From Pseudomonas sp. ADAK18 (GTDB lineage: Bacteria > Pseudomonadota > Gammaproteobacteria > Pseudomonadales > Pseudomonadaceae), in assembly GCF_012935695.1 (NCBI RefSeq), contig NZ_CP052859.1, forward strand, positions 351,001 to 415,000: 64,000 nt of DNA. Direction: 5' to 3'. The position numbers were made by a program, and so were the translations under genes. This document shows positions 22,404 through 26,210 of this stretch, piece after piece. The notes under the pieces were generated by a model. The model was given only the letters and a program-made list of their open reading frames with translations, was not told the DNA's origin and ran no database searches. The first letter of the stretch is position 1, and every line of letters begins with the position of its first letter.

Positions 22404-23797
22404 ACTCGGTCCGTGCACGCATCCTCATCCCGGTGCTGGTACTGATCCTGCTGGGCGACGCCCTGATCAGTTGGCTGGTGCTGCGGGACAGCCATCATGA
22501 AATCGAAGAAGTCTACGACGCCCAACTTGGCCAAAGTGCCCGTCTGCTGCAAAGCGTGCTGCGTCAGCGCGACCCTGGCGACGCCGACTGGGACCGTCTC
22601 TATCAGGCCTTCGACCATGCCATGAGCCGCGTGGGTGAAGACGGCGCAGCACATCCCTACGAAACTCGCCTGACGTTCCAGGTGTGGCGCACCGACGGCC
22701 AATTGCTCGTGCGCTCCACCGAAGCGCCGATCCTCGATGCACCGCCCACCACGTTCGGGTCCCACGACATCACGGAAAATGGCAACGATTGGTGCGCCTT
22801 CCTCCTGGCCGATCCGCAACAAGGCGTGCTGATCTGGGTGGGTGAACGCGACGACATTCGCCAGGACGTGATCGAGCGCATCGTGCGGCACACGTTATGG
22901 CCGAGCCTTATCGGCGTACCTCTGTTGGCCGTGCTCATCTGGCTGGCCATCGGCTGGGGCCTCAAACCCCTGCGCGCCATGGCCCAGGCGATTCGTGGGC
23001 GTAATACCAATACGTTGCAACCCTTGCAACTTGAGCCATTACCCGCAGACCTGGAGCCGATGCAAACCGCGTTGAATCGGCTGCTGGTGCAGATTGATGA
23101 GTTGCTGGCGCGCGAGCGGCGGTTCATTGCCGATGCGGCGCATGAGTTGCGTACGCCGCTGGCGATATTGCGCATTCATGCGCAGAACGCCCAGAGAGCA
23201 GGGACTGAGGAACAGCGTCGAGAGGCATTGGATTTTCTGGTGAATGGCGTGGACCGGGCGACGAGAATTGGTAGCCAGTTGCTGACCATGGCGCGCATCG
23301 AGCCGCAGTTGAACAACCCGGTTCGCGTGCGTGTGCAATTGACGGCGTTGGTGCGGGAGGAGTTAGCGGAGTTGACACCCCTGGCAATGGAGAAAGGCGT
23401 TGAGCTGGTGCTGGAAGGGGATGAAGCATGTTGGGTTGAAACCGAGCCGATGGCGCTGGCGATTGCATTGCAGAATCTAGTGACCAATGCGCTGAATTTC
23501 TCGCCAGTGGGGAGCGAGGTGAGGGTGGTGGTCAAGGTGCTGGATTCCGGGGTGGTGCATCTGTGCGTGGAGGATGCGGGACCGGGGATTGAAGAGCAGG
23601 AGATGGGACGATTATTTGAGCGGTTTTATAGCCAGGGGAACGCCAACGGCGCGGGGTTGGGGCTGGCGATTGTCGAGATGATCGTGGGGAAGATTGGGTG
23701 TGGGTTGGAGTTGTATAACCTGGAGGCAGGTGGGTTGTGCGCGCGGGTGAGTTTCAGTTCCTGTGGGGTTGAGCCTGCGGGAATATCACGCCGTTGA
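22400..23797 (+). CDS. PmrB/QseC-type sensor histidine kinase
   Basis: A 465-aa inner-membrane kinase. Membrane segments lie at about residues 10-30 and 160-185, with a periplasmic sensor domain of about 130 residues between them. The H-box is IADAAHELRTPLAILR; the N-box (NLVTNALNFSPVGSE), G1 (EDAGPGIEEQEM) and G2 (GAGLGLAIVEMI) motifs are intact. It should act on the regulator just upstream. Its last 44 bases overlap the 3' end of the convergent gene at 23754-24224. Confidence 0.93.
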   Translation: MNSVRARILIPVLVLILLGDALISWLVLRDSHHEIEEVYDAQLGQSARLLQSVLRQRDPGDADWDRLYQAFDHAMSRVGEDGAAHPYETRLTFQVWRTDGQLLVRSTEAPILDAPPTTFGSHDITENGNDWCAFLLADPQQGVLIWVGERDDIRQDVIERIVRHTLWPSLIGVPLLAVLIWLAIGWGLKPLRAMAQAIRGRNTNTLQPLQLEPLPADLEPMQTALNRLLVQIDELLARERRFIADAAHELRTPLAILRIHAQNAQRAGTEEQRREALDFLVNGVDRATRIGSQLLTMARIEPQLNNPVRVRVQLTALVREELAELTPLAMEKGVELVLEGDEACWVETEPMALAIALQNLVTNALNFSPVGSEVRVVVKVLDSGVVHLCVEDAGPGIEEQEMGRLFERFYSQGNANGAGLGLAIVEMIVGKIGCGLELYNLEAGGLCARVSFSSCGVEPAGISRR

Positions 23798-24224
23798 AGG
23801 TGTGGGTGCAGCAGTCGCAAAACGGTTTCATGCGTTCTGCATTTAACTGCGGATTGACCTTCTGCAGCAGGCCTGTTTTATCGACGTACAGTCCGCTGTA
23901 GTAGGTTGATTCACCCACTCGCACGTACTCTGTTTTATCGGCGTCGTGTAGGGCAACCATCCAGAATACCGGCTCAGGCCGATCCAGGCGGGCATTGGCT
24001 TCGCTGAAAACTTCATCCCATTGATGACCGACCTTGGACAGCAAAAATCTGAATAGCGGTGTGTAATCAAAGCCATGTCGGTGATGGCTGTGCATCGAGC
24101 CACGGTTGGACAAAGAGCTTTTTTCGCTTTTGCTGTGGCGTTCATGTCGATAGGCGCGAAAGCTACCATGGCGCACATTCCGGGTTCGAGTGTTGACTGA
24201 GCGATAGAGAGGGGGCTTTTTCAT
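23754..24224 (-). CDS. Unrecognised third gene of the bacteriocin cassette (156 aa)
   Basis: I do not recognise a named family. The N-terminal 60 residues are very basic and rich in Arg, His and Ser, probably unstructured. Then comes a compact part with GFDYTPLFRFLLSKVGHQWDEV, the segment PVFWMVALHDADKTEYVRVGES, and near the C-terminus a tight cysteine cluster CDCCTH that could bind metal. The ATG at 24224 has AGGA six bases upstream and lies 10 bases after the immunity gene stop, so it is almost certainly co-transcribed with the toxin and immunity genes. Its end overlaps the convergent kinase gene by 44 bases. It could be an accessory immunity or processing protein; this is inference. Confidence 0.78.
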   Translation of the reverse strand: MKKPPLYRSVNTRTRNVRHGSFRAYRHERHSKSEKSSLSNRGSMHSHHRHGFDYTPLFRFLLSKVGHQWDEVFSEANARLDRPEPVFWMVALHDADKTEYVRVGESTYYSGLYVDKTGLLQKVNPQLNAERMKPFCDCCTHTFNGVIFPQAQPHRN

Positions 24225-24234
24225 TGGGTTCCTT

Positions 24235-24513
24235 TTATGGCTGCTTGGCGGGTTGGGGTGGCCATTTACCTTGGTAGCGGAAAGATATTTGGTAATCGAA
24301 CTGCTCGGGTTCAATCACATGCTGGAAGTGCGGTTGGATAATCGCTATCCAGATTGGAAGAACATTGAATACGTCGGCATATATCGCAGGTTCCTGGTTC
24401 AAACCTAATGCCTCAAAAAAGCTGTCTCCATCATCAAGCTCTGCCGAGTATTCATCCGCTTTAACGTCATTGCTGTGCTTGTCGTACCATCGCAATCTGA
24501 CTTTCATAACCAT
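24235..24513 (-). CDS. Cloacin/colicin E3-type immunity protein
   Basis: A 92-aa acidic protein that clearly follows the colicin E3/cloacin DF13 immunity family: an opening strand MKVRLRWYDKHSNDVKADEYS like the LTWFDK start of ImmE3, then DGDSFFEALGL, IWIAIIQPHFQH and a YQISFRYQGKW end. Such proteins bind the rRNase domain of the cognate toxin and protect the producer. The ATG at 24513 has GGAG eight bases upstream (a second ATG two codons on is possible). It begins 15 bases behind the toxin gene, the standard order. The C-terminal PPQPAKQP tail extends beyond the usual 84-85 residues. Confidence 0.92.
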   Translation of the reverse strand: MVMKVRLRWYDKHSNDVKADEYSAELDDGDSFFEALGLNQEPAIYADVFNVLPIWIAIIQPHFQHVIEPEQFDYQISFRYQGKWPPQPAKQP

Positions 24514-24528
24514 TCTGGATTCTCCGCG

Positions 24529-25692
24529 TTATCTGTAAATTCGGCGCTCTGGTTTTGCTGGGCCTCGACGCTCGCCGGTGTAGGGGTCGAATGCACCGAG
24601 GTGACTAAGGTCACTGTTTCGATAAGCTTCTAATTCGCCTTTTTTGGAATCCCATTCATAGAGTTTCCTCCCTTTAGCATCTATCCAACGCTCACGTAAG
24701 CCGCTCCCGCCTTGCCTTGGCGTCACGGGTCTTTGTTCTATCAGGCCTGGGAAGCCCGTTATGTCTTCAGTTTTGGGTGCAGGAAAGTAATCATGGTCCG
24801 GGTTTCTCAACCCCTTCCGAGGTTCGTTAACCACCACATATAGCGGCCTGACCCCCGACTCCACCGGAAACACCAGAATAAAATCCCGATACCCCGGCGG
24901 GTAAATAGGGTTCACCAAAATCTGCTTCGCCGCCTCAGTCGGCGGATAGATCCACATCACCGGGGCTTGCGGCGCAGCTTCTAATGCCGGAATGCCCAGG
25001 GTGTCGCCAGGATCAACGGCAGGTGTCCAAATCAGCTCCACACCTTCACCGAGATCCGCCACAAATTGACTGTCTCGGTTCTGGAACTGAACCACATCTA
25101 TCATCTGCCAATCGGCATTCTTACCGGTGTAAAACCCATACCCCTTGAGTGTCCCGTCGGTGCTTTGCTCGACATGCAGGCGCATCTGCGAGCGGGCTTG
25201 TCGCAGGTTCCGGAGCTGGTCTTCGCTATAGAGCGCGCTGTCCCCAAGCTGTGACGGCCAAGCCAGCGCCACCAGCCCTGTCAACAGGCCTCCCGCTGCG
25301 GCACCGACGGTCGCCGCTGCTGACTCCAGCGCCGCCGTGCGCAACACAAGCTGGCCAAGCCCGACGGGCAGGGCGCTGCCACTGATCTTCTTGAGAGACA
25401 CGCCGCCGCGGCTGTCCACCTCACGCCCGCCCAGTAGGGTGAAGTGGCCGTAATCCTTGATCAGCTCAAGCGGTACATAACCGCTCGGGTTGTTGTAGCT
25501 GATGATGCCGTTGGGCAGTTGGCACGACTTGGCGAATACGTAGCCTGGAACCTTGGTGGGTTCAGGCTTGGAAGCGGGGATGGTGTCGGGAACATCAATG
25601 AACGGTGAATAAGGCGCCCGCGAAGGTTGCGGGGTCAGAATTCGCTGTCTCAGCTGTTCTTTTTCGGTAATCGGATAAGCGCGTTCTGGCAT
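24529..25692 (-). CDS. Short S-type pyocin-domain protein with colicin E3-type rRNase C-terminus
   Basis: A 387-aa antibacterial toxin. The C-terminal ~95 residues match the colicin E3/cloacin cytotoxic domain, which cuts 16S rRNA at the decoding site: HDYFPAPKTEDITG, then GRKLYEWDSKKGELEAYR and LGAFDPYTG. Aligned by eye to colicin E3, Asp510, Glu515, Glu517 and Arg545 correspond to D348, E353, E355 and R383, but His513 is replaced by Lys351. The middle (about 170-290, with PIYPPGYRDFILVFPVESGVRPLYVVV) resembles the pyocin S domain, preceded by a hydrophobic Ala/Gly-rich stretch. Usual S-pyocins and colicins are 550-770 aa; the long receptor-binding part is absent. No signal peptide. The delivery route is therefore unclear. 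Confidence 0.9.
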   Translation of the reverse strand: MPERAYPITEKEQLRQRILTPQPSRAPYSPFIDVPDTIPASKPEPTKVPGYVFAKSCQLPNGIISYNNPSGYVPLELIKDYGHFTLLGGREVDSRGGVSLKKISGSALPVGLGQLVLRTAALESAAATVGAAAGGLLTGLVALAWPSQLGDSALYSEDQLRNLRQARSQMRLHVEQSTDGTLKGYGFYTGKNADWQMIDVVQFQNRDSQFVADLGEGVELIWTPAVDPGDTLGIPALEAAPQAPVMWIYPPTEAAKQILVNPIYPPGYRDFILVFPVESGVRPLYVVVNEPRKGLRNPDHDYFPAPKTEDITGFPGLIEQRPVTPRQGGSGLRERWIDAKGRKLYEWDSKKGELEAYRNSDLSHLGAFDPYTGERRGPAKPERRIYR

Positions 25693-25919: not shown

Positions 25920-26210
25920 TCAGCTTAGGTAATGAACCTCTGGTGCAAGATCCGGGTATTCGATCGCCATATCTGTAAGGCACTGCCGCATGAGCTTTGC
26001 GTCGCGGGGTAAGTGTTCCGAGAAAACACTCCAGCCAACGAGTTCCAGTTTTATTGGCATCTCCACCAGGCCGGTGATGGCATCCCAGAAGGCGTCCCAG
26101 TTATAGCCGTACCAGTCGGGGAAGCTGAGTGCGTTGCTCAGGGTTGAATGGAGTTCGCCCGAGTCCTTGACGCTACTTAAGTCAATTTCTACAACGGGTA
26201 ATCTAGCCAC
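25920..26210 (-). CDS. Barstar family RNase inhibitor, solitary
   Basis: A 96-aa protein with the barstar fold signature: VEIDLSSVKDSGELHSTLSNAL, then the inhibitor motif FPDWYGYNWDAFWDAITG, whose acidic and aromatic residues plug the active site of barnase-type RNases. Start is GTG 26210, with GGAG five bases upstream. No barnase-like gene is found in the window, so it is an orphan inhibitor; it lies 227 bases upstream of an rRNase bacteriocin gene on the same strand. It may protect against incoming barnase-type toxins from rivals (inference). Confidence 0.9.
   Translation of the reverse strand: MARLPVVEIDLSSVKDSGELHSTLSNALSFPDWYGYNWDAFWDAITGLVEMPIKLELVGWSVFSEHLPRDAKLMRQCLTDMAIEYPDLAPEVHYLS

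Follow-up and report, generated by a model that had tools for sequence, protein, structure and literature searches.

How might a colicin-type toxin that lacks a receptor-binding part enter its target cell? The question is raised by a gene in a 64,000-nucleotide stretch of the genome of Pseudomonas sp. ADAK18 (the whole stretch analysed, referred to here as the window), which encodes a protein of 387 amino acids (aa) ending in a colicin E3-type domain. Comparison of sequences and predicted structures suggests, with a probability of roughly 0.7, that this protein is a cargo effector of the type VI secretion system (T6SS) that lacks a PAAR domain and combines the translocating and killing modules of a colicin, its export by that system being a prediction. 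It resembles an injected effector more closely than a released bacteriocin. The gene and its parts, each with the evidence that defines it, are the following.

25692..24529, minus strand: toxin open reading frame (ORF) with an ATG start, 387 aa (ORF list, Pfam, match to the colicin E3 structure)
25561..25692, minus strand: short head, residues 1-44, with a proline-rich end, of the MPERxYPxTEEE...ILTPQP type (alignment)
25447..25560, minus strand: family-specific lead-in with a VFAKSC-type motif, residues 45-82 (alignment)
24817..25446, minus strand: colicin-type translocation domain, residues 83-292, containing Pyocin_S at 157-287 and a hydrophobic stretch at about 124-145 (Pfam, structure match)
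24532..24816, minus strand: colicin E3-type ribonuclease domain PF09000, residues 293-387 (Pfam, alignment with colicin E3)
24640..24642, minus strand: codon for Lys351, which aligns with His513 of colicin E3, His58 of the isolated domain (alignment)

The C-terminal domain matches the Pfam family Cytotoxic (PF09000) at residues 304-385 (E 3.4e-26), with homology spanning the whole domain, and residues 288-385 align without gaps to residues 450-547 of colicin E3 in a comparison with solved structures (E 3e-27). The E3-type end and the short length named in the original prediction are thus borne out, the toxin being 164 aa shorter than colicin E3 (551 aa). A Pyocin_S domain (PF06958) is likewise present in the middle of the protein, at residues 157-287 (E 2.7e-27), while the proposed count of about 100 unassigned N-terminal residues has to be revised: 156 residues precede Pyocin_S, of which residues 82-156 are part of the same translocation-domain fold, leaving about 81 without assignment. 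Residues 38-292, modelled with confidence from a more diverse alignment, match the translocation domain of E-group colicins (colicin E3 residues ~90-291); a model of the whole protein, built on 39 sequences, had a pLDDT of 47 and was not used in the structure search. The Foldseek and VIA lists showed no conspicuous fold beyond the colicin/pyocin group, the absence of other folds from them counting as no evidence.

Because the translocation-domain match ends at residue 292 (E3 ~291), where the toxin match begins (residue 288, E3 450), there is no room for a receptor domain between core and toxin, and no receptor-binding domain was recognised in the toxin. On the modelled fold, and since that model corresponds to E3 ~90-291, the window protein is colicin E3 minus its N-terminal region and its receptor coiled coil. 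A signal peptide is also lacking, in that no signal-like hydrophobic stretch is present and, among 19-residue windows that begin within residues 1-25, the highest hydropathy is -0.23; in the whole protein, windows of this length are most hydrophobic when they begin at 124-128. Both absences had been predicted. Residues 1-156 have no Pfam match and hence no T6SS marker recognisable by a Pfam scan, and residues 1-44 in particular matched no Pfam family, no search aimed at porin, Tol or TonB motifs having been made.

The relatives of this protein combine a constant core with exchangeable ends. Of 298 Pseudomonadaceae genomes, 68 contain a match (E up to 0.001), and many of the matches end at residue 289-292. 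Beyond that point, the fetched relatives carry tails of the Col-Pyo DNase type, the E3 type or others, and in front of the core they have heads that are short, about 90 residues long, or PAAR domains. A PAAR_motif head was found in 10 of 24 distant relatives scanned with Pfam (nine clear the cut-off, and L133 falls just short of it), a non-random choice from 60 fetched loci that includes two long pyocin-type proteins. Outside Pseudomonas, a plasmid-encoded protein of Chimaeribacter arupi consists of PAAR, Pyocin_S and an E3 toxin, adjoins an annotated E3-like immunity gene, shares 34% identity with residues 100-387 of the window protein and carries the VFAKSC motif in front of this region; a Vibrio maritimus protein joins PAAR to Pyocin_S. 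The lead-in at residues 45-82 also occurs in PAAR-headed relatives and is unmatched in three proteins of more than 600 aa (L166, L168 and L169). A loose VFAKSC-type pattern, useful as a guide only, since duplicates and fragments are counted, is found in 168/182 ORFs shorter than 600 aa. Residues 1-44 of the window protein stand where relatives have their PAAR head, and may be considered a candidate loading element.

Further head types were noticed by eye. Two loci (L128 3602-4744 and L151 1906-3252) have Cys/His-rich, zinc-ribbon-like heads in place of the PAAR or proline-rich ones, and four others (L154, L162, L170 and L185) share a further conserved head type, about 90 residues long, in front of the core, without a Pfam match in the two that were scanned (L162 and L170).

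A connection to type VI secretion is provided by the NCBIfam model of the T6SS DNase effector VPA1263 (NF047924), of which profile positions 376-584 are matched by toxin residues 76-292 (E 4.1e-21). Each of eight relatives compared with the same model also matches it, the two long pyocin-type proteins among them weakly, and none exceeds its cut-off. The host itself possesses a T6SS cluster in which TssB, Hcp and VgrG lie in the same stretch, with two PAAR proteins beside it (TssE was not looked for). Among the Pseudomonadaceae, TssB is present in 66/68 match-bearing genomes versus 171/230 without a match, and within the genus in 50/50 match-bearing versus 46/53 other genomes, the genus members without TssB having been read from a kinship-sorted list; these counts ignore relatedness and include every toxin match to E 0.001, weak ones to long pyocin-like frames among them. 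Entry by a route other than TonB or Tol, for which T6SS had been offered as an example, is favoured in its T6SS form by the PAAR-headed relatives rather than demonstrated.

Several observations weigh against a T6SS effector. The window toxin scores 75 bits against the VPA1263 model, whose curated cut-off is 900 bits, and no PAAR, VgrG or Hcp part was found in it by the Pfam scan. A BLAST comparison of the genome's four own VgrGs with the ORFs of 198 loci revealed no vgrG near toxin loci, matching only the VgrG loci themselves (L004-L007) and the T6SS cluster (L192). Two match-bearing genomes are without TssB, and one of these, the single-contig genome G178, carries a PAAR-headed member of the family (L130).

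If the protein is a T6SS effector, its parts could act in sequence. The short N-terminal head would let the effector ride the spike or tube of the T6SS, whose puncture would carry it past the outer membrane of the target; because the puncture passes that membrane, it is proposed, neither a receptor-binding part nor a Tol/TonB region would be needed. Should delivery stop in the periplasm, the translocation domain (residues 83-292) may bring the C-terminal domain through the inner membrane, a step suggested by its kinship to colicin and pyocin translocation domains. Colicin E3 inactivates ribosomes by cutting 16S rRNA, and by homology the E3-type domain would do likewise to the ribosomes of the target, a reading complicated by Lys351. 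The neighbouring immunity protein would shield the producer and its kin.

The gene is evidently intact. In a species-wide scan using one genome per species (GTDB), the best 80 of 109 relatives were kept, all of them titled Pseudomonas, and 77/80 are 376-420 aa long, the exceptions being a 251-aa fragment of a gene that is broken across two frames (L027), a 355-aa protein (L066) and one of 360 aa with another head (L039). The alignment begins at residue 1 in 30/80, and in two of these (L021 and L038) another in-frame start lies farther upstream. These lengths and alignments rule out a truncated pseudogene, so that neither of the findings that could have overturned the original prediction, such a pseudogene or a normal receptor-binding domain, was encountered. 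A phage origin was rejected as well, phage records giving no match. The same genome encodes a second family member elsewhere (399 aa, 59% identity over the matched part, E3-type tail), downstream of which a small gene weakly resembles DUF7683, below the cut-off. Further toxin or core pieces lie beside the main gene at six loci (L063, L075, L076, L081, L098 and L108), as in other polymorphic toxin loci.

Around the toxin gene are three other features.

24235..24513, minus strand: immunity gene, Cloacin_immun PF03513, 92 aa, directly downstream of the toxin gene (Pfam, E 7.8e-21)
23754..24224, minus strand: conserved third gene, 156 aa, behind the immunity gene, without a Pfam match (Pfam, locus comparison)
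25920..26210: single Barstar-family gene located upstream of the toxin gene (Pfam), the only one found in the genome

The immunity gene is probably the cognate of the toxin. The third gene stands behind the toxin in 19/80 loci, and in other genomes it was also seen on contigs without a toxin match (for example L148 and L150). The Barstar-family gene is possibly an orphan immunity gene; its membership in the module is not supported, BLAST relatives being present in four other loci only, where they precede the toxin gene (L012 and L026) or follow it (L027 and L039). The toxin gene is alone at a fixed chromosomal site, far from the T6SS cluster of the genome. Two head types occur among the 80 loci, each tied to one chromosomal site: class A heads lie at the site seen in the window in 27/30 cases (the other 3 not placed), and class B heads lie beside nhaA in 37/48 (the other 11 not placed). 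Two of the 80 loci, one of them the broken L027, belong to neither class.

The best-surviving alternative, which is nonetheless unlikely, is a diffusible bacteriocin with an unusual mode of entry, in which the short head would bind an outer-membrane protein or a periplasmic energy system and so replace the receptor arm. Core and toxin are of the colicin/pyocin type, and residues 1-44, being without a Pfam family, leave room for a short uptake motif. The same core, however, bears PAAR heads in relatives, and two long pyocin-type proteins of the genus (L166, 835 aa, and L169, 687 aa) have 487 and 340 residues, respectively, before the matched part. In addition, neither a LexA-like box (CTG-N9-11-CAG) nor a P-box-like site is present in the 240 bp upstream, a weak test with loose patterns, and no lysis-type gene was recognised by eye behind the immunity gene.

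Delivery by contact or by another injection device, such as an extracellular contractile system or release together with tailocins, has a slimmer chance. It would suit a gene that stands by itself so far from the T6SS cluster, and it would also suit G178 with its PAAR-headed member and no TssB match. Against it, both the PAAR heads and the match to VPA1263 favour T6SS, and no gene of such a device was seen by eye, without a profile scan, among the neighbour clusters common to at least 6 loci.

The remaining alternative turns on the active site. Colicin E3 His513, the proposed catalytic acid or base, aligns with Lys351 of the window toxin, so the proposed catalytic His58 is absent here, and the 399-aa paralogue has Ser at this position. 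In 2004, Walker and colleagues reportedly described an E3 active-site set of Y52, D55, E60, E62, Y64, R40 and R42; these seven other positions are all kept in the window toxin, as Y345, D348, E353, E355, Y357, R333 and R335. Among the 104 motif-bearing of 124 distinct proteins, the window protein included (20 lack the motif), the His513 position is occupied by His in 59, Lys in 21, Ser in 14, Arg in 5, Gln in 2, and Glu, Asn and Thr in one each; among the E3 chains matched, one (4v5k) has Ala there. The median ratio of nonsynonymous to synonymous substitution rates (dN/dS) in the Lys group, which includes the window protein and the L027 piece, is 0.067 for the toxin part (127/210 pairs usable) versus 0.12 for the delivery part (196/210). 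The corresponding values are 0.10 (83/1953 pairs) and 0.136 (919/1953) in the His group, and 0.04 (18/91) and 0.123 (77/91) in the Ser group. The toxin domain of the Lys proteins is thus under purifying selection, and this form seems to be maintained rather than decaying. It is thus very improbable that the locus is a non-killing remnant, its activity lost through Lys351 and the gene kept as an immunity or allelic reservoir, given that 21 distinct proteins share the Lys, that their toxin domain is under purifying selection, and that the seven other active-site positions are retained. In favour of a remnant are the replacement of the proposed acid-base His here and in the paralogue, and the existence of relatives that are broken or short (L027, L066, L111) or accompanied by orphan pieces (L063, L075, L076, L108).

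A T6SS cargo effector of this kind is already known in outline. The NCBIfam T6SS-effector model contains its core, and plasmid relatives are annotated as 'colicin E3/pyocin S6 family cytotoxin' or 'S-type pyocin domain-containing protein', so that a distinct, little-described class of bacteriocin, as first proposed, is too strong a description. More surprising are the short, interchangeable heads and the Lys at the catalytic position. Tentatively, and with more doubt than belief, these could be head-swappable effectors in which a constant colicin translocation domain is preceded by PAAR or by very short site-specific heads acting as new T6SS loading signals, and in which, as part of the same claim, the E3-type RNase of this lineage works with Lys, instead of a His regarded as essential for catalysis, through a changed chemistry or ribosomal site. 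The natural proteins compared suggest that, once outer-membrane entry is accomplished otherwise, a colicin still needs its translocation domain but can dispense with the receptor arm and the N-terminal uptake region. A receptor-less protein would offer a clean test of what the translocation domain does at the inner membrane. The short heads are candidate T6SS loading signals outside the known marker domains, and a natural Lys under purifying selection questions whether the His is required in the family.

Similar comparisons can be made with the known systems. Relative to colicin E3, the window protein has no counterpart of residues 1-~89 or of the receptor coiled coil (~292-449), and it has Lys where colicin E3 has His513. 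S-type pyocins share with it the order of Pyocin_S before a nuclease tail, but two long pyocin-type proteins of the genus have 687 aa (L169) and 835 aa (L166), compared with 387 aa for the window protein, which is without a receptor region. The VPA1263-type T6SS DNase effector has a core in common with residues 76-292, whereas the first 375 positions of its profile, which presumably include a MIX domain, are unmatched, and the window toxin is E3-type rather than a DNase. The PAAR-Pyocin_S-nuclease proteins (L134, L157, L195 and others) contain the same core together with the VFAKSC-type motif, and one of them (L195) also has the same toxin type; they differ in bearing a PAAR head where the window protein has about 44 unrelated residues.
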